A DNA stretch of 64,000 bases from Flagellimonas chongwuensis (GTDB lineage Bacteria > Bacteroidota > Bacteroidia > Flavobacteriales > Flavobacteriaceae): positions 186,001 to 250,000 of the forward strand of contig NZ_WYET01000001.1 in the NCBI RefSeq assembly GCF_013376415.1, in the 5' to 3' direction. The translations under genes were made by a program, and so were the position numbers. Below are positions 6,101 to 52,417 of this stretch, one piece after another (within the stretch, counting starts at the first letter, position 1; each line of letters opens with the position of its first letter). The notes beneath the pieces are model-generated. The model was not told where the DNA came from, did not search any database, and saw only the letters and a program-made list of their open reading frames with translations.

Positions 6101-7501
6101 GCCGTATTGTTGACAGCTTCTGCGGCTGCATTGGGATTTTTGCCCATGGCGGTCTCCACCAATGCAGGTGCCGAGGTACAGCGCCCCCTTGCAACGGTAG
6201 TTATCGGGGGATTGGTAACGGCCACCATGCTTACCTTGGTAGTACTCCCCGTTCTCTATGCCTATTCCCATAATATCAAGTTCAGAAAAATCAAAAGAAA
6301 AAGAAAGATGAACCGAAATACATTGACATTGATAGTGATGTTGATTTCATTTTCAGGGTTCTCCCAGACCAAATTGGACCTAGAAGGTTTGATAACGCTC
6401 TCCTTGGAAAACAATAAGGGCATCCAAGCAGGTTCATTAATGGTCGATCAGGCAGAAACACTAAAGGGTTCTGCTTTTGAGTTTGATAAAACGGACATTT
6501 ACTACCAATATGATGAAAACAACTTGGCAATGAACGGGGAACCCCTCAAGGTTTTTGGGGCACAACAACAATTTGAGTTCCCGACGGTTTACGGTGCCAA
6601 GAACCGACTCCAGAAGTCGAACTATGAGCTACAGAAGTCATCCTTTGAGATACAGAAGAAGCAATTGTACCAATCCTTGAGCAAGGCATACTATCAATAC
6701 CAGACACTGAACCAAAAGGCAAAGCTTTACCATACGCTGGACAGTATTTACAGCAAATTCGCCCATGCGGCCAATAGACGTTTTGAACTGGGAGAGACCA
6801 ACTATCTGGAAAAAGTGACCGCAACGGCCAAACAACGCCAGATCGCGAACACCTATTCGAAGGTCAAGCAACAGATGTTGACTACGTACGGCCAGATTGT
6901 GAGCTTGGTGCAAAGTGAAGACACTTTGGAGATCGTCCATAAAAAACCAGAAAAGTTGACTGTATTGAATTCCGAGGGAATGCTGCAAACGGAAACCTCA
7001 TTTTTGGACAACCGGCAAGAGCGGAGCAATGCCCAAAAGAGTTTGGAGGAAAATAGATTGTTGCCCGACCTCAACCTCGAATATTTTCAAGGTACAAACA
7101 GCACTCTGGGCACTTCGCTGTACGGTATTCAATTGGGGGTACGCATCCCTATCTTCTTCTTTGGACATAGTAGCAAAGTAAAGTCGTCCAAAATCCAGAC
7201 CAAGATCACGGAAATGGAGAACACCGAAATCACCGTGGCCATAAACCAGCGTTATAAAACTTTGATGGGACAACTGGAACAACAGGCCAAGGAACTCTCC
7301 TACTACGAGGACGAGGGCGGTCTACTTTCCGATCAAATCTTGAAAGCCGCCTCTGGCAACTTTCAAAACGGGGAAATCGACTTTTTCCAGTACATCCAAA
7401 GTTTGGAGAACGCCTACGACATTCAACTTAATTACTTGGATGTACTCAACCAATACAATCAAACCGTAATCGCCATTAATTACTTGACAATAACATTATA
7501 A
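3164..7501 (+). CDS. czcA: CzcA/CusA-family heavy-metal RND permease fused to a TolC-like outer-membrane domain
   Basis: Residues 1-1048 form a complete heavy-metal RND pump. TM1 is near residues 12-31, and the TM4 proton-relay motif DFGIIIDGAVIIVE gives Asp400, Asp406 and Glu413, matching the HME subfamily pattern. At the central site where CusA has a metal-binding Met, the sequence is RFNELITG, which favours divalent cations (Co, Zn, Cd) over Cu/Ag; this is inference. From Met1049 the frame continues into a separate signal-peptide-like segment (MNRNTLTLIVMLISFSGFSQ) and a TolC/CzcC helical domain of about 375 residues. No stop separates the two halves. The CzcB adaptor gene starts 2 bases after the stop. 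Similar long fusions occur in Bacteroidota, but how the outer-membrane half is released is unclear. Confidence 0.92.
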   Translation: MFSKIINFSIKNKFIVLLFTAFIAFVGLYSLSQIPIGAVPDITNNQVQVLTTSNRLSTQDMEKFVTYPVELEMANLPGVKEIRSVSKFGLSVVTIVFEDDMGTYLPRQLIAEKIKSASSRIPEGFGSPEMGPITTGLGEIYQYILDVEPEYKDQYNSTELRTIQDWIVKRQLSGIPGVVEVNTWGGHLKQYEVAIQTQKLNALDITAREVFTALEMNNSVSGGGYIEKVNQAYFIRGEGLVSNLKDIENIVVTNRNGIPIYIKDVAKVGFGSAPRFGAITGNGEGEKVLGQIMMLKDADSKRVIEAVKERVASISKSLPEGVYINPFLDRSELIGRTTFTVTENLVLGCLIVIFVVVLLLGNWRSGLVVASVIPLCLLFALTLMNIFGVDANLLSLGAIDFGIIIDGAVIIVEYIAFQITQKKAQLANLGKTEAQSIKDEITLQGATKMMNSAVFGQLIILIVFIPILSLSGVEGKMFKPMALTFSFALLGAVLLCFTYVPVASALFLKPSKESKKSISTRLVNWINRRYEPVIEWAMRSKKLVLSVAAALLIGAILLFTSMGGEFVPTLDEGDFVIQPVLKTGTTLTKTVETTTKMEQILLDNFPEVKQVVSRIGAAEVPTDPMSMEESDVIISLKPKSEWVSAETKDELADKFKEALAVIPGIELEFTQPIEMRFNELITGVRADIAVKIFGQDLEILNKKANQIKDLIQDVEGASDIIVEKVEGLPQMNVSFDRAKIARHGLNIADLNEMIAMGFAGKVVGSVFEGERQFDMAVRLDSENRKDISNLRNLYVDIPNGGKIPMSELAEITYQKGAAKISRDDTQRRIVVGINVRNRDLQSVVDDIQLIIDENLTLPPGYIISYGGQFENLQSAKARLLIAVPIALLLIFIMLYFAFGSVKEALLIFSAIPLSAVGGILLLWLRDMPFSISAGVGFIALFGIAVLNGIVLIEHFKELKGKDFESMEALIKQGTKDRLRAVLLTASAAALGFLPMAVSTNAGAEVQRPLATVVIGGLVTATMLTLVVLPVLYAYSHNIKFRKIKRKRKMNRNTLTLIVMLISFSGFSQTKLDLEGLITLSLENNKGIQAGSLMVDQAETLKGSAFEFDKTDIYYQYDENNLAMNGEPLKVFGAQQQFEFPTVYGAKNRLQKSNYELQKSSFEIQKKQLYQSLSKAYYQYQTLNQKAKLYHTLDSIYSKFAHAANRRFELGETNYLEKVTATAKQRQIANTYSKVKQQMLTTYGQIVSLVQSEDTLEIVHKKPEKLTVLNSEGMLQTETSFLDNRQERSNAQKSLEENRLLPDLNLEYFQGTNSTLGTSLYGIQLGVRIPIFFFGHSSKVKSSKIQTKITEMENTEITVAINQRYKTLMGQLEQQAKELSYYEDEGGLLSDQILKAASGNFQNGEIDFFQYIQSLENAYDIQLNYLDVLNQYNQTVIAINYLTITL

Positions 7502-39774: not shown

Positions 39775-40530
39775 TTAATTCAACTCCCTTACCCAAATAT
39801 TTCTATAGCTTACCCTACTGTTGTCCCCATGATCCTGAAGTCTAAGAGGTCCCTTTCCGTGTGGAGGGTTTTTAGGCCAACCAATGTAAGGGGTGGTTCC
39901 CTTGATCTCTACATGATCTTGCACCAAAACACCATTATGTATCACGGTAAGAGTACCGGACTTTACTTTTTGACCTTTTTCAAACTCTGGCGCGTGATAA
40001 ATAATATCGTAGGTATTCCATTCCCCTGTGGGCACGGAAGCCATGGCCAAGGGTATGTGCTGTTTGTAAATGGAGCCAACTTGACCATTTACGTAGGTGT
40101 CATTGTCATTGTTATCCAATACCTGCACCTCGTAGAGTCCGTTCAGGAAGATTCCACTGTTTCCCCTATTTTGGCCATCCCGTTGTACTTCGGCAGGTGA
40201 TTTCCACTCAACATGCAACTGTACGCTCCCAAAATTCTGCTTGGTCTGGATGTCGCCGGTTCTATCCTTAACGGTCATACTGCCGTCCTTGTTCAAAGTC
40301 CATTTGGCGGCAGTACTGTCCACAGTGCTTATCCATTTATCCAACGAGGTACCATCGAACAATACAATGGCATCGCTTGGAGACGCACCGTTCTCACCGG
40401 GTGTTACTTTTGGAGGAACAGGCTTGTATAATTCGGTCGCTTCAGGTTTTGTGGGCTCTACTTCCTGAGCATTAACGAATAAACCTGTCATCACGGCAAC
40501 TATCCCCAAAGTGTATTTCAATCTTTTCAT
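39775..40530 (-). CDS. Secreted DUF1080 protein (3-keto-disaccharide hydrolase family)
   Basis: The 251-residue protein has a Sec signal (MKRLKYTLGIVAVMTGLFVNAQ) without a lipobox and one DUF1080 jelly-roll: IVLFDGTSLDKW (about 55-66), VQLHVEWKSP, RGNSGIFLNGLYEVQVLD (about 122-139) and RLQDHGDNSRVSYRNIWVREL at the end. The family is annotated as acting on 3-keto glycosides. It is the last gene of a minus-strand operon, directly after a second DUF1080 gene, in a region rich in sugar oxidoreductases. Confidence 0.88.
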   Translation of the reverse strand: MKRLKYTLGIVAVMTGLFVNAQEVEPTKPEATELYKPVPPKVTPGENGASPSDAIVLFDGTSLDKWISTVDSTAAKWTLNKDGSMTVKDRTGDIQTKQNFGSVQLHVEWKSPAEVQRDGQNRGNSGIFLNGLYEVQVLDNNDNDTYVNGQVGSIYKQHIPLAMASVPTGEWNTYDIIYHAPEFEKGQKVKSGTLTVIHNGVLVQDHVEIKGTTPYIGWPKNPPHGKGPLRLQDHGDNSRVSYRNIWVRELN

Positions 40531-40531
40531 T

Positions 40532-41278
40532 CTACAACTCTTTAATCTTAATATCCCTGAATGCTACCACATTCCCATGGTCCTGCAATCCAATTTTACC
40601 TGTATTAAAAGCGGCGAAATCTTCCCAGTCGGCAAATTTGGAATTGGCAATCAATTTGTCCCATTCCGGACCTTCCAACGGAAACTCCACAATTTTGGTC
40701 CCGTTCAAAATTACATGACCTTGGTTGGTCTTGTGATTGATCATCAATTCCACGGAGTTCCATTCGCCCGCTGGTTTGACCACTTTTTCAGATGGTGGAA
40801 CAATGTCGTACAAGGATCCCGCCAAACGATCTTCTCCATTTTTTGCATCAGGGTGTCTCTCGTCATCCAAAACTTGAATTTCCGGACCGGTAACGTATGG
40901 CTGGCCATATTCCTCCCCTTCCTTTACGCCCCAAAAGAATCCACTGTTTCCTCCTTCGGAAATCTTCCAATCCAGGGTCAGTACAAAATCGGTAAACTCT
41001 TCATCGGTCACCAAGTTGTAGTTGGCTCCTTCGGGTCTTTTTTCCATTGGGTAAAACACCATGGCTCCATCTTCTAGTTTCCAAGGCTCGGTAACCTCTC
41101 CTCCATTGTACATGTGCCAACCGTCAAAACTTGTCCCGTCGAACAAGGTGGTCCATTCAGCTTCTTTTTCTTCAACTACCTCCGTCATTTCTTCTTGAAC
41201 TTCTTCTTTGTTTTCCTTTGGTTTGTCCTTGCAGGCAAATACTGCTGCAAGAGCTATAAACAACAATGGTTTTTTCAT
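40532..41278 (-). CDS. DUF1080 lipoprotein (3-keto-disaccharide hydrolase family)
   Basis: The 248-residue protein is a probable lipoprotein with lipobox VFAC (Cys16) and an acidic linker (ENKEEVQEEMTEVVEEKEAE). The DUF1080 domain covers about 42-248 with TLFDGTSFDGWH, LTLDWKISEGGNSGFFWGV, GPEIQVLDDERHPDA and GLQDHGNVVAFRDIKIKEL. Its ATG overlaps the stop of the isomerase gene upstream. Together with its secreted paralogue it gives two periplasmic or surface members of the same family, perhaps for different linkages. Confidence 0.9.
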   Translation of the reverse strand: MKKPLLFIALAAVFACKDKPKENKEEVQEEMTEVVEEKEAEWTTLFDGTSFDGWHMYNGGEVTEPWKLEDGAMVFYPMEKRPEGANYNLVTDEEFTDFVLTLDWKISEGGNSGFFWGVKEGEEYGQPYVTGPEIQVLDDERHPDAKNGEDRLAGSLYDIVPPSEKVVKPAGEWNSVELMINHKTNQGHVILNGTKIVEFPLEGPEWDKLIANSKFADWEDFAAFNTGKIGLQDHGNVVAFRDIKIKEL

Positions 41279-42327
41279 AATCCTAATATGTTTTTAAGTT
41301 TTTGTTCATCGATATCCGCTCCAGCGAAATCATCAAATGTTTTTGTGGTTGCTTCTATAATATGATCTTGAATAAATTTGGCTCCTTCGCGAGCTCCTTG
41401 TTCAGGGCTCTTGATACAGCACTCCCATTCCATTACGGCCCATACATCGCATCCGTATTGAGTCAGTTTGGAGAAGATTGTCTTGAAATCTATTTGTCCA
41501 TCTCCCAAAGAACGGTACCTACCTGCTCTATCTCCCCAATCGTTATAACCACCAAAGGCTCCTTTTTTCCCAGTTGGATTAAACTCGGAATCCTTCACGT
41601 GGAACGATTTGATAAACTCATGATAGTGGTCGATATAGGCTATATAATCCAGTTGTTGTAGTACGAAGTGACTTGGGTCGTACAAAATGTTGACTCTTTT
41701 ATGATTCCCAGTGGCTTCCAAAAAGCGTTCAAAGGTATCACCATCATGAAGGTCCTCGCCAGGATGGATTTCATAACAAACATCCACGCCTTCTTCATCA
41801 AAATGGTTAAGGATGGGCATCCATCTATTGGCCAGCTCCTCAAAACCCATCTCTACCAATCCAGCCGGTCTTTGCGGCCATGGATGAGCGGTGTGCCAAA
41901 GCAAGGAACCTGAAAATGTCGCATGGGCCTTAAGTCCAAGTCTTCGGCTTGCCGTAGCGGCTTTTTTAACGGTTTCTATCGCCCATTTTGTGCGCTCTTT
42001 TGGCTTTCCGTGCAATGCTTCGGGTGCAAAATTGTCGAACATGATATCATAGGCAGGATGTACCGCTACCAACTGCCCCTGTAGGTGGGTAGATAGCTCG
42101 GTGATCTCCAAACCATAGGAATTTATCGTTCCTTTGAGTTCATCACAGTAATCTTGGCTTTCGGCCGCTTTGTCCAAATCTATCAAGAAGGATTCCCAAG
42201 TTGGTATCTGAATCCCTTTGTACCCTAAATCTGATGCCCATTTGCACATACCGTCCAAAGTATTGAACGGAGGTTGATTGTCCACAAATTGCGCTAGGAA
42301 TACGGCCGGTCCTTTAATTGTCTTCAT
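41275..42327 (-). CDS. Cytoplasmic sugar phosphate isomerase/epimerase (TIM barrel)
   Basis: The 350-residue xylose-isomerase-like TIM barrel has metal-site motifs VCYEIHPGEDLHDGD (about 180-194), NILYDPSHFVLQQLD (about 213-227), SFHVKDSEF and VMEWECCI (about 302-309). There is no signal peptide. Such proteins interconvert or dehydrate keto-sugars. It leads the operon with two DUF1080 genes and is divergent from a GMC flavoprotein gene, the same arrangement as at 48911-50046. Confidence 0.87.
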   Translation of the reverse strand: MKTIKGPAVFLAQFVDNQPPFNTLDGMCKWASDLGYKGIQIPTWESFLIDLDKAAESQDYCDELKGTINSYGLEITELSTHLQGQLVAVHPAYDIMFDNFAPEALHGKPKERTKWAIETVKKAATASRRLGLKAHATFSGSLLWHTAHPWPQRPAGLVEMGFEELANRWMPILNHFDEEGVDVCYEIHPGEDLHDGDTFERFLEATGNHKRVNILYDPSHFVLQQLDYIAYIDHYHEFIKSFHVKDSEFNPTGKKGAFGGYNDWGDRAGRYRSLGDGQIDFKTIFSKLTQYGCDVWAVMEWECCIKSPEQGAREGAKFIQDHIIEATTKTFDDFAGADIDEQKLKNILGL

Positions 42328-42351
42328 TTAGTTAAAATTTAAGGAATTAGG

Positions 42352-42374
42352 AAATCCCAAATTAATTGGGATTT
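42352..42374. promoter_or_regulatory. 23-bp palindrome in the first isomerase/GMC divergent promoter
   Basis: AAATCCCAA-ATTAA-TTGGGATTT lies 25 bases upstream of the isomerase start. No gene ends here, so an operator is more likely than a terminator. Confidence 0.45.
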
Positions 42375-42417
42375 ATCTTTTATATTTAAGAAAAAAACTA
42401 TGCTATTTTTAGGTCTC

Positions 42418-42445
42418 ATGTAGAAAAACATAAATATAGGGATTA
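42418..42445. promoter_or_regulatory. Shared promoter words, copy 1
   Basis: ATGTAGAAAA (42418-42427) and ATAGGGATTA (42436-42445) both recur exactly in the other isomerase/GMC divergent region (49980-50000), in the opposite order. They may be sites for a common regulator. Confidence 0.45.
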
Positions 42446-42469
42446 GCTAACAATTAAAACAACATTAAA

Positions 42470-44173
42470 GTGATTGAAAACAAAGTTTATGATGCCATTG
42501 TTGTAGGAACGGGCATAAGTGGCGGTTGGGCCGCCAAGGAATTATGCGAAAACGGACTCAACGTGTTGGTATTGGAACGAGGGCCAATGGTGAAGCATAT
42601 TGAAGATTATAAAACCATGAACGATGATCCGTGGGATTATACTTTTAAAGGAGAGCTTTCCCGTGAGGACAAAGAAAAATATCATAAACAACTTAGGGTC
42701 GGGTGGGCGCCCAAAGAAGATGTAAAACACTTTTTTGTGAACGATTTGGAACACCCTTACCAAGAGACCAAACGTTTTGATTGGATCAGGGGCTATCAAG
42801 TGGGGGGAAGATCCCTGACCTGGGGACGACAAAGTTATAGATGGAGCGACATTGATTTTGAGGCAAACCAGAAGGAGGGTATTGCCGTAGATTGGCCGGT
42901 GCGCTACAAAGATATTGCTCCTTGGTACGACAAAGTTGAATCCTACATCGGCGTTAGCGGCCAGGCTTTGGGCCTCAAACAACTACCCGATGGTGTTTTT
43001 CAGCCACCTATGGAACTCAACTGTGTTGAACTGGAGCTCCAGGAATCGCTTAGTAAAGAGTTTGATGATGGTCGCTTGCTTACCATTGGCCGTGCGGCAC
43101 ATATTACTGAAAACACTACCGATTTTACGGGTCGAGGACCTTGTCAATTTAGAAGCCGTTGTTGGAGGGGTTGTCCCTTCGGAGGTTACTTTAGTAGTAA
43201 TTCATCTACCTTGCCCGCTGCGGAAAGAACCGGAAACTTGACCTTGAGGCCAAATTCAATCGTACACCAAGTGGTCTATGATGAAAATAGGAACCGGGCG
43301 ACCGGCGTCAAAATTATAGATGCTGAAACACAGGAAAAACTGGAATTTAACAGTAGTATAGTTTTCCTTTGCGCTTCCTCCATGGCATCCGTGGGGATTC
43401 TGCTTCAATCGAAATCCAATAGGTTTCCCAATGGAATGGGCAACGAACACGACCAGCTAGGAAGGAACATCATGGACCATCACTACCAACTCGGAGCATC
43501 GGCAAAAGTAGATGGGCATTTGGACAAATATTATAAAGGGCGAAGACCCAACGGCATCTATATTCCAAGATTTGTTAATCTGGATGAGAAAACTAAACGC
43601 CCGGATTTTCTCCGTGGTTTTGGTTATCAAGGTGGGGCCAATAGAACCGATTGGTCGGAAATGGTTGCAGAGATGGGATATGGAGAGGCGCTAAAAGAAT
43701 CCATTTTAAAGCCTGGAGGCTGGGAAATTGGATTGGGCGGCTTTGGTGAAATGTTACCGTACCACGACAACCGAGTAACCTTGAGCAAGGACAAAAAGGA
43801 TAAATGGGGACTGCCCCAACTGGATTTTGACGTTGAATTCAAAGAAAACGAATACAATATGCGAGAGGCCATAAAAGTAGAAGGCGAGGCTATGTTGAAA
43901 GCAGGCGGCTTTAAAAATATTTCCGTTTTTGATATGGAGACAGGACCAGGTCTAGGTATTCACGAAATGGGAGGTGCCCGCATGGGTCACGACCCAAAAA
44001 CTTCCGTGCTGAACAAACATAACCAATTGCATGCAGTACCCAATGTTTATGTTACCGATGGTGCTTTTATGACATCTTCAAGTTGCGTAAACCCATCTTT
44101 GACCTATATGGCATTTACGGCAAGGGCCGCCAACCATGCTGCGGAACAGTTCAAACAAAATAAATTTGCTTAA
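42470..44173 (+). CDS. GMC-family flavin oxidoreductase (glucoside-dehydrogenase-like), copy 1
   Basis: The start is a GTG giving MIENKVYDAIVVGTG (567 residues); no ATG is available. The FAD Rossmann motif is at residues 9-22 (VGTGISGGWAAKEL). A CX5CX3C cluster (Cys225, Cys231, Cys235) matches the spacing of the 3Fe-4S ligands known in bacterial FAD glucose dehydrogenases. The catalytic pair is probably His498 (GIHEMGGARMG) and Asn541 (SCVNPSLTYMAF), as in pyranose oxidase-like GMC enzymes. It has no signal peptide and, unlike its paralogue at 50046, no small-subunit gene next to it; it may share the Tat-exported subunit encoded at 51764. Confidence 0.9.
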   Translation: MIENKVYDAIVVGTGISGGWAAKELCENGLNVLVLERGPMVKHIEDYKTMNDDPWDYTFKGELSREDKEKYHKQLRVGWAPKEDVKHFFVNDLEHPYQETKRFDWIRGYQVGGRSLTWGRQSYRWSDIDFEANQKEGIAVDWPVRYKDIAPWYDKVESYIGVSGQALGLKQLPDGVFQPPMELNCVELELQESLSKEFDDGRLLTIGRAAHITENTTDFTGRGPCQFRSRCWRGCPFGGYFSSNSSTLPAAERTGNLTLRPNSIVHQVVYDENRNRATGVKIIDAETQEKLEFNSSIVFLCASSMASVGILLQSKSNRFPNGMGNEHDQLGRNIMDHHYQLGASAKVDGHLDKYYKGRRPNGIYIPRFVNLDEKTKRPDFLRGFGYQGGANRTDWSEMVAEMGYGEALKESILKPGGWEIGLGGFGEMLPYHDNRVTLSKDKKDKWGLPQLDFDVEFKENEYNMREAIKVEGEAMLKAGGFKNISVFDMETGPGLGIHEMGGARMGHDPKTSVLNKHNQLHAVPNVYVTDGAFMTSSSCVNPSLTYMAFTARAANHAAEQFKQNKFA

Positions 44174-44182
44174 AACCTACTT

Positions 44183-44647
44183 ATGGAAAATGCTTCAGCC
44201 CGAAATCTTTGGGGCGATTTTTTGGATGCCTATTTGGAGTTTGCTTCTGAGGACGCACCAAAGGTGATTCACTTTTGTGATAATGAAAAAGATGCCAACT
44301 TGTGCGCAGATTTGATCTGCAAAGAAACCAAAAGAGCGACAACATATAGCCTCAAAGGGATACAGCTCCGCAATGAAGCTTTGCCCAAAATCGGGGATTT
44401 TTATGTGGTAACGGACTGGAGTGGCGATGCCAAATGTATTATACGAACCACTGCTGTTAAGCTTCTCCCCTACTTCAGCATCAGGGAAGAGCATGCCCGT
44501 TTGGAGGGTGAAGGAGATAAAAGCCTCGACCATTGGAAAAAGGTCCATTGGGATTATTATACCCGGGAACTATCTGAGTTAGGGACCAAACCTACCGAAA
44601 GTATGATTGTGGTGTTTGAGCAGTTTGAGATGCTTTATAAAAAATAA
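44183..44647 (+). CDS. ASCH-domain protein
   Basis: The 154-residue soluble protein has the ASCH/PUA-like pattern ATTYSLKGIQLRNEALPKIGDFYVV followed by WSGDAKCIIRTTAVKLLPYFSI and SLDHWKKVHWDYYTRELSELG. ASCH proteins are thought to bind RNA or act on modified nucleosides. It starts 9 bases after the GMC gene, so it shares its transcript, though no link to sugar oxidation is evident. Its stop is part of a palindromic terminator. Confidence 0.85.
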   Translation: MENASARNLWGDFLDAYLEFASEDAPKVIHFCDNEKDANLCADLICKETKRATTYSLKGIQLRNEALPKIGDFYVVTDWSGDAKCIIRTTAVKLLPYFSIREEHARLEGEGDKSLDHWKKVHWDYYTRELSELGTKPTESMIVVFEQFEMLYKK

Positions 44648-44670
44648 TGGCTGCCAATTGGCAGCCATTA
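44645..44670. terminator. Bidirectional terminator, 26-bp perfect palindrome
   Basis: TAATGGCTGCCAA followed by its exact reverse complement begins with the ASCH stop codon. On the minus strand it runs into a T-rich tract, giving a good terminator for the Gfo/Idh operon; on the plus strand the T tract is weaker. Confidence 0.75.
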
Positions 44671-44697
44671 CCTATTCTTTGTTGAATACATAAGGAT

Positions 44698-45834
44698 TTA
44701 ATCCATATCCACCCAAATATTTCCTTGTTTGTGGGAAGCTACCGTGTTCTCTATAAAATTAAGTCCACGTACACCGTCCATCATTGTAGGGAATTCACCA
44801 TCATTGTATTCTTCACCACGGATGGCCCTTGCAACACCTAGGTAGATATTGGCCATAGAGTCAAAAATACCTTCTGGGTGTCCAGGGGGCAACTTTGTTC
44901 CGTCCAAAGACAGTTTGGAATTGTACTGATGCCCTGGTTTATATACCTGCAACGGTTCTGGATCATTCAACTTGTAGAGGTAATTTGGGTTTTCCTGTTC
45001 CCATTTCAACCCTCCTTTTTCACCGTAAATGGCTATGGTGAGATTGTTCTCCTCACCTGTGGCCACTTGGCTGGCCCTAATGACTCCTTTTACGTTTTTG
45101 TCCATGCGAATAAGGGCGGTACCATCCATATCCATGACATTGTCATCATACATATAATTGAAATCGCAGAGCAAGGATTGCACCTGCAGACCGGTGGTGT
45201 ATTCTATCATGTTAAAGGCGTGTACACCGATATCTCCCATACAAGAACTGATTCCCGCTTTTTTGGGGTCGAGTCTCCATACGGTCCTACGCTTTTCCTT
45301 ATCGTGAATAATAGGGTTCATCCAACCTTGATAATATTGCGCATCAACTTTGTGTACTTTCCCAATAACACCGTCCTTTATCATCTCGCGCATTTGTCGC
45401 ACCATCGGATAACCTGTGTATGTATGTGTTACGGCAAATACCTTTTTGACTTCTTTAAGGGTCTCTTGAAGGATTTTGGCCTCTTCATATGTGGTGGTCA
45501 TCGGCTTTTCACAGATGACATGGAAACCATTGTCCAAAAGTTTTTTTGCCATTGGAAAGTGCAAGAAGTTAGGCGTAAGAATGGAGCAAACTTGAATACG
45601 TTCGTCTTCTGGAAGCTTCATCTCTTCTTCTATCAACGTATCAAAATCTTTATAGATACGATTGGTTGGAATATCAATTTCCTTGGCAAAGGCTATACTT
45701 TCATCATGGTCTGGGTTAAACACAGCACCAACAATCTCGTAATTATCATTAATAAAGGCTGCCACCCTGTGCAGCACACCAATAAGCGAATCCCCTCCTC
45801 CTCCGAGAATTCCGAGTCTAATCTTTTTAGGCAT
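44698..45834 (-). CDS. Gfo/Idh/MocA-family NAD(P)-dependent oxidoreductase
   Basis: The 378-residue protein has an N-terminal Rossmann fold (IRLGILGGGGDSLIGVLHR), the EKP motif in HVICEKPMTTTYEEAK (about 108-123) and a catalytic His in MGDIGVHAFNMIEY (about 208-221). There is no signal peptide. In sugar clusters the family reduces 3-keto sugars or oxidises sugars at C3, so it is a candidate for the cytoplasmic reduction step after import. It lies 20 bases downstream of an MFS gene on the same strand. Confidence 0.9.
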   Translation of the reverse strand: MPKKIRLGILGGGGDSLIGVLHRVAAFINDNYEIVGAVFNPDHDESIAFAKEIDIPTNRIYKDFDTLIEEEMKLPEDERIQVCSILTPNFLHFPMAKKLLDNGFHVICEKPMTTTYEEAKILQETLKEVKKVFAVTHTYTGYPMVRQMREMIKDGVIGKVHKVDAQYYQGWMNPIIHDKEKRRTVWRLDPKKAGISSCMGDIGVHAFNMIEYTTGLQVQSLLCDFNYMYDDNVMDMDGTALIRMDKNVKGVIRASQVATGEENNLTIAIYGEKGGLKWEQENPNYLYKLNDPEPLQVYKPGHQYNSKLSLDGTKLPPGHPEGIFDSMANIYLGVARAIRGEEYNDGEFPTMMDGVRGLNFIENTVASHKQGNIWVDMD

Positions 45835-45854
45835 TTTTATTATTTTATTTTCAA

Positions 45855-47093
45855 TTATACTACTTCTTCTGCTGTATGGCCCTGAGGCACTCTTCTTTCT
45901 TCCAATTTCTTACGAAACAGGAACAAAATGGAAAACAGAATCAACACTGCCAACGGAAAAAACATCATTTTCCCCAAGGTTGCCTTTCCTGCTGCCAATT
46001 CCGCCACCTCATCGGCAAGTCCAGATGAAACAGCTGTTTCTTTTGCTGTGTCCAACCAACCGCCGATCACGGGTTGCCATATGGCCGTGGAGAACATTCC
46101 TGCCCCACCTACCAAGGACATTCCCAATGCTCCCGTTTTGGGAAGGTATTCGGAAGTAAACCCAATCATGGTAGGCCAAAAATAACAAACTCCCAACGCA
46201 AAAAGAACGGCTGCCAAATAAATCATGGAGCCTTCGGCAACACTCATGCTATACACTGCTGCGGTAGTTATCAGGGCGGACATCACCAAAACCCCAATAG
46301 GATTAAGCCTATGTACAATGGGCCCGGCAAAATATCGGCCTATGGCCATAATACCGGTCACCATGGCCAAGACCAACATGGGGCTTGCCCCAGAATTACC
46401 CAAAATTCGTTCCACCCATTGTTGAGGGCCAAATTCTGAAATTGCGGTGAGGGTCATGCACAACATGATAAAAATGAACAATGGGTCTGCAAGACCTTTG
46501 ATGTTCTTTGTGGTGTCCGTTTCGATATGTTCGCTTTCTGGAAACTGTTGCTTAAAGAACATATATCCGTAGATAAGCGTAGGTATCAACATTACCGCAA
46601 TCTGCAATTGCCAACCCATTCCAAAATCGGTCATAAACTTGGAGATAAGGGAGCCGATCACAATTCCTCCAGGGAACCATACGTGGAACCTGTTCAACAT
46701 GGCTGTACGGTTCTTGGTGAACATATCGGCAATCATCGGATTACAGGCCGCTTCCACCGAACCATTGGCAAAGCCAATAAAGAAGGTGGATATAATCAAT
46801 GTCCAAAACCCTCCTGCCATTATAGTAAGGATCAATCCAAGCATGTGGCAGACAAATGCTGTTACCATGAGTTTACGTGCCCCAATTTTATTGTAGAGCA
46901 ATCCACCAAAGATCATGGCAATAGGGAATCCAAAAAAGCCCATACTGTTTATCCAACCTAATTGTTGATTGGAAAGCATGAATTCCTCCCCTAATTGGGT
47001 CAATATACCCGCCCTAATGGCAAAGGTCATGGATGTAACCACCAGCGATATACAGGCTGCCAGAAATAGCTGATTCTTGTTTACGTTTTTCAT
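45855..47093 (-). CDS. MFS transporter
   Basis: The 412-residue protein has about twelve membrane helices in two halves. The first loop carries GFPIAMIFGGLLYNKIGARKLM, equivalent to the MFS A motif. No substrate signature is evident. Position between Gfo/Idh and a second carrier suggests import of a sugar, keto-sugar or sugar acid released in the periplasm. Confidence 0.87.
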   Translation of the reverse strand: MKNVNKNQLFLAACISLVVTSMTFAIRAGILTQLGEEFMLSNQQLGWINSMGFFGFPIAMIFGGLLYNKIGARKLMVTAFVCHMLGLILTIMAGGFWTLIISTFFIGFANGSVEAACNPMIADMFTKNRTAMLNRFHVWFPGGIVIGSLISKFMTDFGMGWQLQIAVMLIPTLIYGYMFFKQQFPESEHIETDTTKNIKGLADPLFIFIMLCMTLTAISEFGPQQWVERILGNSGASPMLVLAMVTGIMAIGRYFAGPIVHRLNPIGVLVMSALITTAAVYSMSVAEGSMIYLAAVLFALGVCYFWPTMIGFTSEYLPKTGALGMSLVGGAGMFSTAIWQPVIGGWLDTAKETAVSSGLADEVAELAAGKATLGKMMFFPLAVLILFSILFLFRKKLEERRVPQGHTAEEVV

Positions 47094-47190
47094 TTTTGTT
47101 TCAGTTAATTTTGGTTGTATCTATAATCTTATGTCCTATTTTGATCATATTTAAATCAAAGGGTGTCCGAGCATGTGCATTCCCGATTAC

Positions 47191-48420
47191 CTAAGATTTA
47201 TATTCTACTTTCTCGTTCTTGAATATTAATGCAAACAACACGAATACTACTGCCGCGAATGCTGCTGGATAAATCCAAATACTTTCCCAAGCATGGGCGC
47301 CGTCTTCCATAGTAAGTGAATCGGTAATCTGGCCTGCGATCCAGAAACCTATTAACATTCCCACTCCATAGGTGGCCAATGTAATCAAGCCCTGTGCTGC
47401 ACTTTTGTACTTTTTACCAGCTTTTGTATCGGTATAAATTTGTCCGGATACAAAGAAGAAATCATAACAAATTCCATGCAGTGCAATCCCAAGAATCAGC
47501 ATAAAAGATAATTCATCAGCATTACCATAGGCGAACAATAGGTAACGAACCGTCCAGGCCAACATACCTACCAATATGGTCTTCTTAAATCCAAATCTGG
47601 TGAAAAAGAAAGGTAGTGCCAGAATGAAAAGTGCTTCGGAAATTTGACCGATGGCCATTTTACCTGTTGGGTTTGGCAATCCTATTTCTGACAGGAACGG
47701 GTTGGCATTTTGATAGTAAAAAGCCAACGGGATACAAATTAATACTGATGATATAAAGAACACCAAGAAGTTTTTATCCTTCAACAGTTTCAATGCATCA
47801 AGTCCCAACACATCGGAGATGGTCACTTTTTCGCTTTTGTCCACCTTTGGCGGTGTCTTTGGCAATGTGAAGCTGAAAAGCCCCAAAACTGCCGAAGCGA
47901 TTCCAGCCATCAAAAATGTATTTCTAAGCATTCCCGCTTCCAAAGCTTCTGGAGAGTCCCAAACAAAAAGGTAGCTTATTACCAACCCTGCGATAATCCA
48001 ACCAATGGTACCAAACACACGGATATTCGAGAACTCCTTTGCTGGGTCTTTCATTTGATTGAACGATATGGAATTCACCAAAGCCAATGTTGGCATATAC
48101 AAAATCATATAGCCCAATACGTATGGATAGAAGGCGGCAAAATCGTCCGATTGATACATCTGGTACATTAAAAATGCACCGATAAGGTGCAATACCCCCA
48201 AAATTCGTTCGGCATTAAAATATCTGTCAGCAATAAGTCCAATAATGAACGGAGCTATTATAGCACCCCATGATTGGGTGGAAAAAGCCATCGAGGATTG
48301 CCCTGCTGTTGCTTCTAGATTATTCCCTAGGAATGTTCCCAGGGTAACAAACCAACCTCCCCAGATAAAAAATTCGAGGAACATCATAAATGAGAGTTGG
48401 AATTTGGTCTTAATATTCAT
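47191..48420 (-). CDS. NupG-like (NHS family) MFS permease
   Basis: The 409-residue protein resembles the nucleoside:H+ symporter branch, with MFLEFFIWGGWFVTLGTFL at the N-terminus, twelve membrane helices and RVFGTIGWIIAGLVISYLF near residue 133-151. In Bacteroidota such permeases are frequently encoded beside Gfo/Idh and isomerase genes, so a glycoside or sugar substrate is more likely here than nucleosides; this is inference. Confidence 0.85.
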   Translation of the reverse strand: MNIKTKFQLSFMMFLEFFIWGGWFVTLGTFLGNNLEATAGQSSMAFSTQSWGAIIAPFIIGLIADRYFNAERILGVLHLIGAFLMYQMYQSDDFAAFYPYVLGYMILYMPTLALVNSISFNQMKDPAKEFSNIRVFGTIGWIIAGLVISYLFVWDSPEALEAGMLRNTFLMAGIASAVLGLFSFTLPKTPPKVDKSEKVTISDVLGLDALKLLKDKNFLVFFISSVLICIPLAFYYQNANPFLSEIGLPNPTGKMAIGQISEALFILALPFFFTRFGFKKTILVGMLAWTVRYLLFAYGNADELSFMLILGIALHGICYDFFFVSGQIYTDTKAGKKYKSAAQGLITLATYGVGMLIGFWIAGQITDSLTMEDGAHAWESIWIYPAAFAAVVFVLFALIFKNEKVEYKS

Positions 48421-48443
48421 TGTTGGTATTCAAAAATTAGTAA

Positions 48444-48887
48444 TTATCGTTTGTAATGCACATAGTCCAAAGGCTCGGGCTCTATCCCTGCATTTCTCAA
48501 CTCCATCATAATTTGCCCCCTATGGTGCGTGGAATGATTGATGATATGAAAAAGGATGTCCTCCAGTTTATTTGAAAAATTCTTTCCTGTACTGTTGGTA
48601 TATTCCACTCGTTTATCAAAAGTATCCGTGCTGGATACAATTTCAAAGGAAGTTCGTTGATTTTCGTAATGAATGTCTTCCCATGTATCTACCTCATGCA
48701 GGTCCCAGACTCCAAATTCAGTTGGGTATTCCAGTATCCTTTGGTTCCAAATATGATGGGCATTTAGTATATGACTAAAAAGTCTAATGCAGTTGTCCGG
48801 AACCTGGCCCGGACCACTGCATTGTTCAATTATTTTTTTGTTACAATAGAAATTGTAATCGAAGAGCTGTTGTAAAAATCCCTTCAT
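48444..48887 (-). CDS. DinB-family protein
   Basis: The 147-residue four-helix protein has the three metal-binding His positions of DinB/YfiT proteins: LFSHILNAHHIW (about 37-48) and HIINHSTHHRGQIMMEL (about 113-129). Some relatives are thiol-S-transferases; others are uncharacterised. It sits between two sugar-pathway genes, 22-24 bases from each, so it is part of this operon. Confidence 0.87.
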   Translation of the reverse strand: MKGFLQQLFDYNFYCNKKIIEQCSGPGQVPDNCIRLFSHILNAHHIWNQRILEYPTEFGVWDLHEVDTWEDIHYENQRTSFEIVSSTDTFDKRVEYTNSTGKNFSNKLEDILFHIINHSTHHRGQIMMELRNAGIEPEPLDYVHYKR

Positions 48888-48910
48888 CTACCCATTTATA
48901 TTTAGTAGGA

Positions 48911-49909
48911 CTATTCCAGTACTTTTTCCAAAAGTTTCTTGGTTGCCAATATTCCTTCTTCTTCGCTAAGTTCAGAGCCTTCGTACTCTACCCCAACATA
49001 ACCTTCGTATCCAGCATCCAATACAATATCCATGATTTTAGGATAATCCACTCTGGTCTCATAGCCTTCTTCATTGAAACTGTAGGATTTGGCACTAACA
49101 CCTTTGGCATAAGGCATCAATTCTTTTACCCCTTTATATTTGTCGTACTCTTCCAAACATTCTGATGAATAGTAATCCCCTGCTTCCCTTTTGATGCAGA
49201 AGTTTCCAAAATCCGGCAATGTACCACAATTGTCCATGCCCACTTTTTCCATAACGTCTGCCAACATTTGGGCATTGGAAGATGGCCCGCCGTGATTCTC
49301 TACAATAATATTGATGTTTTTGTCCTTGGCATAAGTGGCCAATTGGGTAAGCCCCGCAACGGATGCAGGCATCCATACTTCTGGCTCCATGCTTCCGTTA
49401 AGGTTAACGCGGATGGAGTGGCAACCCAAAGCTGCGGCCGCATCTACCCATTTATAATGGTTTTCCACTGCTTTTGTTCTTTCGGCTTCATCAGGAACCG
49501 CGATGTCGCCTTGTCCATCCACCATGATCAAAAGATTCTTCAACCCATATTTTTCACTTTCGGCCTTACTCTTTTCCACCCATTTGTTCATGGCCTCTTC
49601 GGAAAAATTCGCAGCTTGCAGTTCTTTATAATAAAGAGCGCTCACATATTCCAATCCCTCAAAACCCCATTTGCTTGCTTTTTCCGCAAACGTGTAAGGA
49701 TCAACGCCTTCTTCGAAAATCATTTTGTGAATGGACCATTGTGCCAGAGAAAGCTTAATGTCCGGTTTAGGCTCATCTTCTGCTACTACCTCGGTACCAG
49801 ATTCCTCCGCTGTTTCCTTCTTTGAATTCTCTTTACAGGAATAAAATCCTAAAAAAGCCACGGCAATAAGTGTGACAATACTTTTCTGTGCTAAACTACT
49901 TCTGTTCAT
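48911..49909 (-). CDS. Periplasmic lipoprotein sugar isomerase/epimerase (TIM barrel)
   Basis: The 332-residue protein has a lipobox FYSC (Cys25) and an acidic linker, then an AP-endonuclease-2-type TIM barrel: LSLAQWSIHKMIF, GFEGLEYVSALYY, NIIVENHGGPSSN (about 199-211), GTLPDFGNFCI and GYVGVEYEGSEL. It is therefore outside the cytoplasm, unlike the isomerase at 41275. It leads the minus-strand operon and is divergent from the second GMC gene. Confidence 0.87.
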   Translation of the reverse strand: MNRSSLAQKSIVTLIAVAFLGFYSCKENSKKETAEESGTEVVAEDEPKPDIKLSLAQWSIHKMIFEEGVDPYTFAEKASKWGFEGLEYVSALYYKELQAANFSEEAMNKWVEKSKAESEKYGLKNLLIMVDGQGDIAVPDEAERTKAVENHYKWVDAAAALGCHSIRVNLNGSMEPEVWMPASVAGLTQLATYAKDKNINIIVENHGGPSSNAQMLADVMEKVGMDNCGTLPDFGNFCIKREAGDYYSSECLEEYDKYKGVKELMPYAKGVSAKSYSFNEEGYETRVDYPKIMDIVLDAGYEGYVGVEYEGSELSEEEGILATKKLLEKVLE

Positions 49910-49979
49910 ATTTTTACGTTAGTTAATTTCGTGCGGAATCCAAAAACTACAACGTTATAGTGCTGAATTCTCAATAAAC

Positions 49980-50023
49980 ATAGGGATTAAATGTAGAAAA
50001 TTAATTTAATAATTAATACATTT
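49980..50023. promoter_or_regulatory. Shared promoter words, copy 2, within a palindromic region
   Basis: ATAGGGATTA (49980-49989) and ATGTAGAAAA (49991-50000) match the words at 42418-42445. The second word begins a dyad with outer arms AAATGT/ACATTT and inner arms ATTAATT/AATTAAT (49989-50023). The region separates the lipoprotein isomerase from GMC copy 2. Confidence 0.45.
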
Positions 50024-50045
50024 AGCAAATAAACAATCCGAATAA

Positions 50046-51764
50046 ATGAGTAAATTTTATTACAATCAGGAGCAGGAATCCTACGATGCCATTGTGGTAG
50101 GTACGGGTATCAGCGGTGGTTGGGCTGCAAAAGAATTGTGCGAAAACGGTCTCAAGACTTTGGTCTTGGAGCGTGGCCCCATGGTAAAACACCGTGAAGA
50201 TTACCCTACGGCCAATATGGACGATTGGGATTTTAAGCATGCGGGCAGAGCAACCCGAGAAGACGTTAAGCAACAAGAGAAACAATCCAGAACCGGTTAC
50301 ACCACTGGTGCAGCCTCAAAACATTGGTTTGTAAACGACTTGGACCATCCTTACAACGAGACCAAACGTTTCGATTGGATGAGAGGTTACCACGTAGGTG
50401 GACGTTCCATTATGTGGGGACGACACAGCTACAGATGGAGCGACATTGATTTCACTGCAAACAAAAATGAGGGAATCGCCGTGGATTGGCCAGTACGCTA
50501 CAAGGACATAGCCCCTTGGTACGATAAAGTTGAAAGTTACATCGGTGTATCCGGTGAAAATTTAGGTCTGCCTCAACTTCCCGATGGACAGTTTGAGCCC
50601 ATGATGGAACTCAATTGTGTAGAGGACCACGTAAGAGGCAAGGTCGCCGAACATTTTGGTGGCCGTGTTATCACTGCAGGTAGGGTGGCCCACATAAACA
50701 GTGACAAACAGTTTGATGGTGACGGTCGGGTTCGTTGTCAATTTAGGAACCGTTGTATTAGAGGATGTCCTTTCGGAGCATATTTTAGCAGCGTTTCTTC
50801 TACGTTGCCAGCTGCCGAAGCTACAGGAAACATGACCCTTAGACCAGATTCCATTGTACACGAGGTAATCTATGACCCTAACACCAAGAAAGCTACAGGC
50901 GTTAAGGTTATCGATAGAGAAACAAAGGAAGAATTTGAATTCAAAGCAAAAGTTATTTTCCTATGTGCTTCTGCCATTGCTTCTACTTCCATTTTGATGC
51001 AATCCAAATCGGATAGGTTCCCTAACGGTTTAGGAAACGACTCCGGAGAATTGGGCCACAACATTATGGACCACCACTTTTTAGTAGGTGCATCCGGTAA
51101 GTTTGATGGTTACGAAGACAAATACTACAAGGGCAGAAAGCCCAATGGAGTGTACATTCCAAGATTTAGAAACCTTGGCGGTGATTCCGATATGAAAAAC
51201 TTTAAACGTGGTTATGGCTACCAAGGAGGTGCGGGCAGAGGCAATTACGAAGAATTGGTCGCCGAAGCAGCTTACGGAAAAGCATATAAAGATGCAATGT
51301 TGACTCCCGGTGGATGGAACTTTAGCATCAATGCTTTCGGTGAAACCCTCCCTTACCACGAAAACAAAATGACCTTGGATTACGACAAAAAGGACAAGTG
51401 GGGACTCCCTACTGTAACCTTTGATGCCGAAATCGGTGAAAACGAGCACAACATGCGCAAGGATATGCAAGAGCAAGCGGTTCAAATGCTCGAAAAAGCA
51501 GGTGCAAAAGACATCACCGCTTTCAACGCCCCTTATGCATTGGGTCTGGGAATCCACGAAATGGGTACCGCCCGTATGGGGCTTGACCCAAAAACTTCCG
51601 TAGTCAATGGGAACAACCAAGTACACGGATGTAAGAACGTATATGTGACCGATGGTTCCTTTATGGCATCTGCAAGTTGCGTAAACCCATCGTTGACTTA
51701 TATGGCATTTACCGCAAGGGCAGCCAACCATGCCGCCCAAGAACTTAAAAAAGGAAATATATAA
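50046..51764 (+). CDS. GMC-family flavin oxidoreductase (glucoside-dehydrogenase-like), copy 2
   Basis: The 572-residue paralogue of the protein at 42470 is identical at most aligned positions in the N-terminal half. The FAD motif is VGTGISGGWAAKEL; the CX5CX3C cluster is Cys231, Cys237 and Cys241; the catalytic pair is probably His504 (GIHEMGTARMG) and Asn547 (SCVNPSLTYMAF). There is no signal peptide. The ATG of the Tat-type small subunit overlaps its stop by one base, so the large subunit is probably exported by hitch-hiking, as known for FAD gluconate and glucose dehydrogenases. The expected reaction is oxidation of a sugar or glycoside hydroxyl, C3 by analogy with glucoside 3-dehydrogenase. 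Confidence 0.92.
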   Translation: MSKFYYNQEQESYDAIVVGTGISGGWAAKELCENGLKTLVLERGPMVKHREDYPTANMDDWDFKHAGRATREDVKQQEKQSRTGYTTGAASKHWFVNDLDHPYNETKRFDWMRGYHVGGRSIMWGRHSYRWSDIDFTANKNEGIAVDWPVRYKDIAPWYDKVESYIGVSGENLGLPQLPDGQFEPMMELNCVEDHVRGKVAEHFGGRVITAGRVAHINSDKQFDGDGRVRCQFRNRCIRGCPFGAYFSSVSSTLPAAEATGNMTLRPDSIVHEVIYDPNTKKATGVKVIDRETKEEFEFKAKVIFLCASAIASTSILMQSKSDRFPNGLGNDSGELGHNIMDHHFLVGASGKFDGYEDKYYKGRKPNGVYIPRFRNLGGDSDMKNFKRGYGYQGGAGRGNYEELVAEAAYGKAYKDAMLTPGGWNFSINAFGETLPYHENKMTLDYDKKDKWGLPTVTFDAEIGENEHNMRKDMQEQAVQMLEKAGAKDITAFNAPYALGLGIHEMGTARMGLDPKTSVVNGNNQVHGCKNVYVTDGSFMASASCVNPSLTYMAFTARAANHAAQELKKGNI

Positions 51765-52417
51765 TGGAAAGAAGATCAGCACTTAAAAATATGGGACTGG
51801 CCTTCGGTTATGCCGTGGCCACCCCGACATTGTTATCGCTATTGCAAAGCTGTAAGGACAAACCCGCATATTCGGAGTGGTCCCCCAGCTTTTTGAGCAA
51901 GGAGCAAGGGTATGCCTTAGCGCAGACCGTGGATGTAATTCTTCCCAAAACGGATACTCCTTCTGCAACCGAGGTAAATGTTCATGTATTTATCGATGCC
52001 TATTTGGACGAAGTAATGCCTTTGGACCAAAGAGAGTTTGTCATCATGAAAATGAACAAGTTCTATGACAAGGTATTGGCCGATTCTGGCAAAGAATCTC
52101 TATTGGATTTGGAAGCCGCGGATATAGAGCCAGCTTTGCAAGCATACCTACGAAAACGTTCGGATGAAGAGGAAGAAGCACATTCCGAAGCCATCATGAA
52201 CTACATGGAAGCCATTATGCAAGGTGGAGAAGGTAGTTTGGATGATGATATTGCCCGTTTTTCCTTTGCCAATGACTTGAGGGATTTGGCCACTTGGGCC
52301 TACAAATCCTCAGAATATGTGGGTGAGGAAGTATTGGCTTATTTGCCAATTCCTGGTGAATATATCGGTTGTGGCGACCTTGAAACCTTGACAGGCGGCA
52401 AGGCTTGGTCTATCTAA
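51764..52417 (+). CDS. Gluconate 2-dehydrogenase subunit 3-family protein (Tat lipoprotein)
   Basis: The 217-residue small subunit starts MERRSALKNMG, with twin arginines at 3-4, a mild hydrophobic core and a lipobox LLQSC (Cys30), so it looks like a Tat-exported lipoprotein. The body has the family pattern YALAQTVDVILPKTDTPSATE (about 49-69) and a C-terminal IPGEYIGCGDLETL. It should anchor and export the GMC flavoprotein encoded just upstream (TAATG overlap). No third, multi-haem cytochrome subunit follows. Confidence 0.92.
   Translation: MERRSALKNMGLAFGYAVATPTLLSLLQSCKDKPAYSEWSPSFLSKEQGYALAQTVDVILPKTDTPSATEVNVHVFIDAYLDEVMPLDQREFVIMKMNKFYDKVLADSGKESLLDLEAADIEPALQAYLRKRSDEEEEAHSEAIMNYMEAIMQGGEGSLDDDIARFSFANDLRDLATWAYKSSEYVGEEVLAYLPIPGEYIGCGDLETLTGGKAWSI

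Follow-up and report, generated by a model that had tools for sequence, protein, structure and literature searches.

How does Flagellimonas chongwuensis use a gene cluster that sets flavoprotein dehydrogenases beside TIM barrels and DUF1080 proteins, and does the cluster hold one sugar pathway or two? The locus occupies positions 39775-52417 of the window, the 64,000-nucleotide stretch analysed here (contig NZ_WYET01000001.1, 186,001-250,000, of a 3.77 Mb genome on 13 contigs), and comprises 12 of the open reading frames (ORFs) listed for the window. The account that we hold to be probable is a single, non-hydrolytic glycoside pathway split between two compartments, with an operator that appears to be shared with a glycoside hydrolase family 31 (GH31) gene. 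The initial annotation had proposed C3 oxidation of glycosides in the periplasm by a GMC protein and a twin-arginine (Tat) exported subunit, cleavage by exported DUF1080 proteins, import and cytoplasmic reduction, and this order of events emerges as the likeliest reading. All ORFs that it named are present where it placed them.

The chemistry turns on TIM1 (41275..42327, minus strand), a PF01261 protein that matches the 2-hydroxy-3-keto-glucal hydratase PDB 8RO4, presumably the Agrobacterium enzyme, over its full length (residues 1-350; 542.7 bits, E 3.9e-162). Its residues E186, D217, H243 and E300 are invariant among 14 sequences. The family assignment is strong, and TIM1 is probably a cytoplasmic 2-hydroxy-3-keto-glucal hydratase. 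It had been thought that the imported product is isomerised; a full-length hydratase match points instead to an elimination, not a hydrolysis, before TIM1. Since the next enzyme would hydrate a glucal, glycoside cleavage should itself be an elimination, which the sequences make more likely than hydrolysis.

The obvious candidates for the cleavage step are the exported proteins DUF1080-A (39775..40530, minus strand), with a Sec-type N-terminus, and DUF1080-B (40532..41278, minus strand), with a lipoprotein-type one; DUF1080-B probably cleaves 3-keto-glycosides. They score 139.3 and 172.7 bits against PF06439, both above the gathering cut-off of 26.8 bits, and are 25% identical over 217 aligned positions; the PDB relatives of DUF1080-B are 8rr2, 8tda and 4jqt. 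The AtOGE-type eliminase 8BVK was not among the PDB matches at E 0.001 of TIM1, TIM2, DUF1080-B or the TIM2 profile, its sequence not having been compared directly. Across the genome there are ten PF06439 matches, two of them in a single 458-residue frame (contig C5, 172274-173545), a two-domain DUF1080 protein.

Reduction would fall to the Gfo/Idh oxidoreductase (44698..45834, minus strand), a Pfam match and probable 3-keto-glucose reductase. Its gene lies 2.4 kb from TIM1, and the protein is 41% identical to the product of a gene beside the hydratase in Pseudoalteromonas. Its assignment as a BT_2158 or BT_2159 3-dehydrogenase was rejected, with 38.3 and 22.2 bits against NCBIfam cut-offs of 750 and 650.

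The N-termini of the encoded proteins divide the pathway in two. By a rule based on N-terminal hydropathy, lipobox and twin-arginine patterns, applied to starts picked by script and crude beside a trained predictor, no export signal was found in relatives of TIM1 (0/145), GMC1 (0/38) or GMC2 (0/107), and the signals in 7 of 133 Gfo relatives were taken as noise. Hydrophobic N-termini occur in 98 of 102 DUF1080-B relatives (49 with a lipobox), 61 of 79 DUF1080-A relatives and 73 of 97 TIM2 relatives, the last with a twin-arginine motif in 30/97 and a lipobox in 30/97. This split points to oxidation and cleavage outside and hydration and reduction inside, which are thus probably periplasmic and cytoplasmic, respectively, and a carrier would then have to import the cleaved sugar.

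In the proposed pathway, SUB3 would carry GMC2, and GMC1 where present, through the Tat route, and the complex would act in the periplasm, oxidising small glycosides at C3 and passing electrons to the respiratory chain. The DUF1080 proteins, possibly with help from TIM2, would split the 3-keto-glycoside by elimination into the aglycone and 2-hydroxy-3-keto-glucal, a product suggested by the hydratase. The glucal would be imported by an MFS carrier, of which the locus encodes an MFS_1 type (45855..47093, minus strand) and a NupG/Nuc_H_symport type (47191..48420, minus strand). TIM1 would then hydrate it to 3-keto-glucose in the cytoplasm, and Gfo/Idh, by analogy with published operons, would reduce this to glucose.

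The core dehydrogenase large subunit would be GMC2 (50046..51764, plus strand; GMC_oxred_N/C), which matches the fructose dehydrogenase large subunit at E 4e-40 with three Cys, one His and one Asn aligned. Directly downstream, SUB3 (51764..52417, plus strand; PF13618, 86 bits) is the Tat-signalled small subunit, with a twin-arginine motif in 102 of 103 relatives; its annotation as a Tat-type lipoprotein is borne out by a twin-arginine N-terminus and a later Cys, after a hydrophobic stretch. GMC1 (42470..44173, plus strand), an optional second large subunit, has no adjoining small-subunit gene. Genome-wide, five GMC C-domain matches stand against four SUB3 matches, GMC1 alone being without a small-subunit neighbour, and it may borrow SUB3. 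Other GMC/SUB3 pairs of this genome lie near SusD genes, at C1:1074638-1076314 (adjoining SusD at C1:1076372) and C3:199514-201175 (about 5 kb from SusD at C3:193302). A GH3 gene at C3:205241 is near the latter; related dehydrogenases thus also occur near polysaccharide loci.

Comparison across the genus shows that the locus is one conserved pathway. TIM1, ASCH, Gfo, the NupG-type carrier, DinB, TIM2 and GMC2 are matched in all 40 genus regions fetched, SUB3 in 39 (the remaining region stops at a contig edge within GMC2), DUF1080-A in 39, DUF1080-B in 36 and the MFS_1 carrier in 30. GMC1 is present in 21 of these regions and missing from 19, and in 19/19 of the latter TIM1, TIM2, Gfo, the NupG-type carrier, GMC2 and SUB3 are kept. 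Genus-wide, 28 of 60 genomes have a GMC1 relative of at least 77% identity (1/28 with an internal stop), and 60/60 give a GMC hit of some kind at E 1e-100 or lower. GMC1 and GMC2 are 64% identical. Among the rows examined, GMC1 forms a single clade of Cellulophaga, Zobellia, Maribacter, Croceitalea and Flagellimonas relatives, and mapping its presence on a tree of 51 rows, built from five other proteins of the locus, takes no fewer than 11 changes, so that repeated loss is the simplest account of its scatter. Four other Bacteroidota loci carry two or three GMC genes, two of them with one SUB3 match.

TIM2 (48911..49909, minus strand) is an exported, lipoprotein-type PF01261 barrel with no significant similarity to TIM1 (E 0.28). 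Its nearest named enzymes, by profile comparison and mostly over the C-terminal stretch, are the C-glycoside eliminases DgpC, DfgA and DaCGD, which share its fold. Unlike these, TIM2 is exported and has Ser for His: Ser272 is invariant in 45/45 sequences, and all four eliminase alignments compared have at this position a His that we take to act as a metal ligand.

The regulatory region between TIM2 and GMC2 appears to link the locus to a second gene. An 83-nucleotide block here (49942..50024) averages 96.4% identity to 40 relatives, with a minimum of 89%; four coding sequences of the locus reach 72-82%, and their third positions about 50%. The block contains the 16-bp palindromic, operator-like site ACTACAACGTTATAGT (49946..49961), found in this position in 40/40 fetched regions. 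The palindrome (ACTAYAACGTTRTAGT) is exact in 60/60 genus genomes, 52 having one copy and 8 having two, with 0 for the reversed control. Three Cellulophaga loci likewise carry it unchanged; loci of other genera have degenerate forms or none. A TAAATGTA/TACATTTA dyad lies in the same block and resembles what we take to be two divergent Bacteroidota -7 boxes. The intergenic region between TIM1 and GMC1 (42328-42469) is likewise conserved and has ATAAAYATAGGGATTA in common with the other divergent region; its conservation is visible in many genomes without GMC1, though three differ.

In each of the eight genomes with two copies, the second precedes the same orthologous gene, which Pfam assigns to GH31 in the genome tested; the neighbour of this gene, tested in another genome, has CBM48 and alpha-amylase domains and is branching-enzyme-like, with a GlgB_N match below cut-off. 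The GH31 gene is present in 60/60 genus genomes, in three as a partial gene, and the 200 nucleotides before its start could be scanned in 58. The best site there has no mismatch in 8 genomes, one in 25, two in 11, three in 6, four in 3, five in 1, six in 3 and seven in 1. Mononucleotide shuffles would give 0.05 of 58 genomes at two or fewer mismatches, and the reversed pattern was never better than five. The site ends 70-76 nucleotides before the start in all 50 genomes with up to three mismatches and in two of the three with four (52/58). In F. chongwuensis itself the site (C8:64027-64042; L309:10028-10043) has two mismatches and lies 73 nucleotides before the GH31 gene, with the branching-enzyme-like gene alongside. 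Two-mismatch sites in this genome overall are at control level (7 vs 7); it is the comparison across the genus that carries the case.

The GH31 protein has mostly alpha-glucosidases by name among its PDB relatives, with some oligosaccharide 4-alpha-glucosyltransferases, and its N-terminus, judged by eye, has no signal. A putative regulator would bind both the palindrome at 49946 and the matching site, and the latter would make alpha-linked glucosides the likeliest substrates. Together, these patterns suggest that the locus and the GH31 gene form a small shared regulon for alpha-glucosides. The absence of glycoside hydrolases and of a SusC/SusD pair, as claimed initially, holds by Pfam for the 12 ORFs of the locus; it fails for the genome, with 5 GH3 and 18 SusD matches, and the term hydrolase-free no longer fits a locus that appears to share an operator with a GH31 gene.

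Three other explanations were weighed. The initial annotation saw two parallel modules, in which DUF1080 proteins hydrolyse 3-keto-glycosides and both TIM barrels are isomerases. Two divergent TIM/GMC pairs (41275/42470 and 48911/50046) are indeed present as drawn, the Pfam name of PF06439 is that of a hydrolase, and PMC9007349 terms BT2157 and a Caulobacter DUF1080 protein hydrolases. The modules do not behave as units, however: GMC1 is lost alone while TIM1 stays (19/40 regions), a lone optional gene beside a constant core, and TIM1 is a hydratase match without significant similarity to TIM2. We consider this arrangement unlikely.

Oxidation of polyols, inositol or sugar acids, by a fructose- or gluconate-type GMC/SUB3 dehydrogenase with IolE- and IolG-like enzymes, would suit the best PDB matches of the GMC proteins, which are fructose and glucose dehydrogenases, and the weak matches to the IolE and IolG models. 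These reach only 60.9 bits against the equivalog cut-off of 290 for IolE (TIGR04379), on which TIM1 was rejected as an inosose dehydratase, and 55.3 against 355 for IolG, well short of the score of TIM1 against 8RO4, and DUF1080 has no known place in such a scheme, which we judge very improbable. Breakdown of nucleosides by 3'-oxidation and elimination, with import by the NupG-type carrier, draws on the 400-bit Nuc_H_symport match (PF03825) and its presence throughout the genus regions. Yet loci L160, L168 and L191 of other genera keep TIM1, Gfo, TIM2 and GMC with an MFS1-type carrier and no NupG-type match, the enzyme matched by TIM1 acts on a glucose-derived substrate, and a literature search on ketonucleosides listed no paper that, judged by title, treats bacterial catabolism. 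Its probability seems to us a shade lower still.

Several observations weigh against the single, compartment-split pathway that we prefer. The hydrolase name of DUF1080, in Pfam and in PMC9007349, is at odds with elimination. The N-terminus of SUB3 passes the hydropathy threshold in 27 of 103 relatives and has a strict lipobox in 5, and no cytochrome family match, as expected of a LacB-type cytochrome c, was found among the 12 locus ORFs. At the GH31 gene the site is weak or absent (five to seven mismatches) in 5 of 58 genomes, misplaced at four mismatches in one more, and has three or four mismatches in eight. No GMC gene is within reach of the TIM1 relative in 20 of the 80 top-ranked named loci or in 11 of the 20 phylum regions, and DUF1080 is missing from 18 of those 80, some stretches being cut by contig ends.

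These 80 loci around TIM1 relatives are the best of at least 594 candidates, a choice that favours near relatives, with matches counted within 10 kb and several stretches ending at contig ends. They contain Gfo in 72, DUF1080 in 62, GMC in 60, SUB3 in 55, TIM2 in 53, the NupG-type carrier in 42, ASCH in 20, the MFS_1-type carrier in 19 and DinB in 17; named close relatives of the locus belong to Flagellimonas, Allomuricauda and [Muricauda]. Of the 20 regions from across the phylum, each some 19 kb long, 17 have Gfo, 12 DUF1080 and 9 GMC. TIM1 and Gfo are, by these counts, the steady pair, and the hydratase family appears to serve also where no GMC is nearby. Eight further stretches of this genome, chosen for their DUF1080, GMC or SUB3 paralogues, gave no TIM1, TIM2 or MFS match at E 1e-8; the gathering of the locus genes is not due to chance. 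Among 296 genomes of the phylum that are 90% complete or better, 57 have a TIM1 relative at E 1e-80. Relatives at E 1e-60 occur in 310 plasmid records, adjoined by Gfo on plasmids of Rhizobium (this relative being 64.6% identical to TIM1), Phyllobacterium, Pseudoalteromonas and Croceicoccus. The Pseudoalteromonas plasmid carries Gfo, TIM1, MFS, DUF1080, GMC, SUB3 and an exported TIM in a single run, its GMC only distantly related and its exported TIM barrel a different one.

The locus is laid out as a tightly packed minus-strand run of DUF1080-A, DUF1080-B and TIM1, a second minus-strand run of Gfo, the two carriers, DinB and TIM2, and the plus-strand pairs GMC1-ASCH and, separately, GMC2-SUB3. 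Two of its genes had been overlooked, encoding an ASCH-domain protein (44183..44647, plus strand; PF04266, 73 bits) and a DinB/YfiT-fold protein (48444..48887, minus strand). A terminator-like stem of 11 pairs (44645..44670, plus strand), a pattern match only, lies where the ASCH and Gfo genes converge. Elsewhere in the window, a 1445-residue ORF (3164-7501) encodes an AcrB-type pump fused to an outer-membrane efflux domain, and BshC at C8:106946-108499 of the genome (477 bits) makes bacillithiol synthesis likely.

Of the subunits of the Caulobacter LacABC dehydrogenase, LacA belongs to the GMC proteins and LacB is a cytochrome; the BT2158 3-dehydrogenase is of the Gfo type. PMC9007349 (2022) proposed a LacABC dehydrogenase with a periplasmic DUF1080 protein, naming Bacteroidetes, and PMC10628242 (2023) described oxidation, elimination, hydration and reduction of glycosides by GlycDH, AtOGE, AtHYD and Gfo of Agrobacterium tumefaciens. 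The novelty first seen in this route therefore falls away, both halves having been published. The same four steps are proposed here, with a flavoprotein dehydrogenase and TAT-pathway partner, a hydratase-type TIM barrel and Gfo; the GMC protein with its Tat-signalled partner corresponds by sequence family, GlycDH itself not having been aligned directly. Unlike the A. tumefaciens pathway, in which the Mn TIM barrel AtOGE cleaves, DUF1080 and perhaps the exported TIM2 would take this place, and MFS carriers lie within the locus. In contrast to the Caulobacter LacABC system of PMC9007349, there is no cytochrome c gene, GMC1 is extra, and lactose is not implied. The route of Bacteroides thetaiotaomicron, with BT2157 as 3-ketotrehalose hydrolase (PMC9007349) and BT2158 (PMC11300592), likewise joins C3 oxidation to DUF1080 cleavage, on trehalose and other alpha-glucosides, but there a BT2158-type 3-dehydrogenase oxidises. 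The chemistry is thus already published, and the present arrangement is a variant. What is added is the DUF1080 compartment split, a TIM2 with an altered residue and an operator with two sites, the last being best supported.

A more specific picture may be offered tentatively, as possible rather than probable. A single regulator, probably of LacI type and probably sensing a 3-keto-sugar or the parent alpha-glucoside, might bind two putative sites, an ultraconserved operator in the 3-keto locus and another in front of the cytosolic GH31 gene that adjoins the branching-enzyme gene. Periplasmic respiratory oxidation and cytosolic hydrolysis of alpha-glucosides would then be co-switched in marine Flavobacteriaceae, and TIM2, with its Ser-altered metal site, would be a new periplasmic 3-keto-sugar enzyme.

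Glycoside hydrolases and SusC/D pairs are the usual guide to marine glycan turnover, an approach that would miss a pathway outside such loci. The pathway described here may feed the respiratory chain directly, and its hydratase is found in nearly a fifth of the sampled phylum genomes. The hydratase makes the question of whether DUF1080 proteins are lyases or hydrolases testable, and the two-site operator would provide a handle on the substrate and the regulator beyond what the enzymes alone give.

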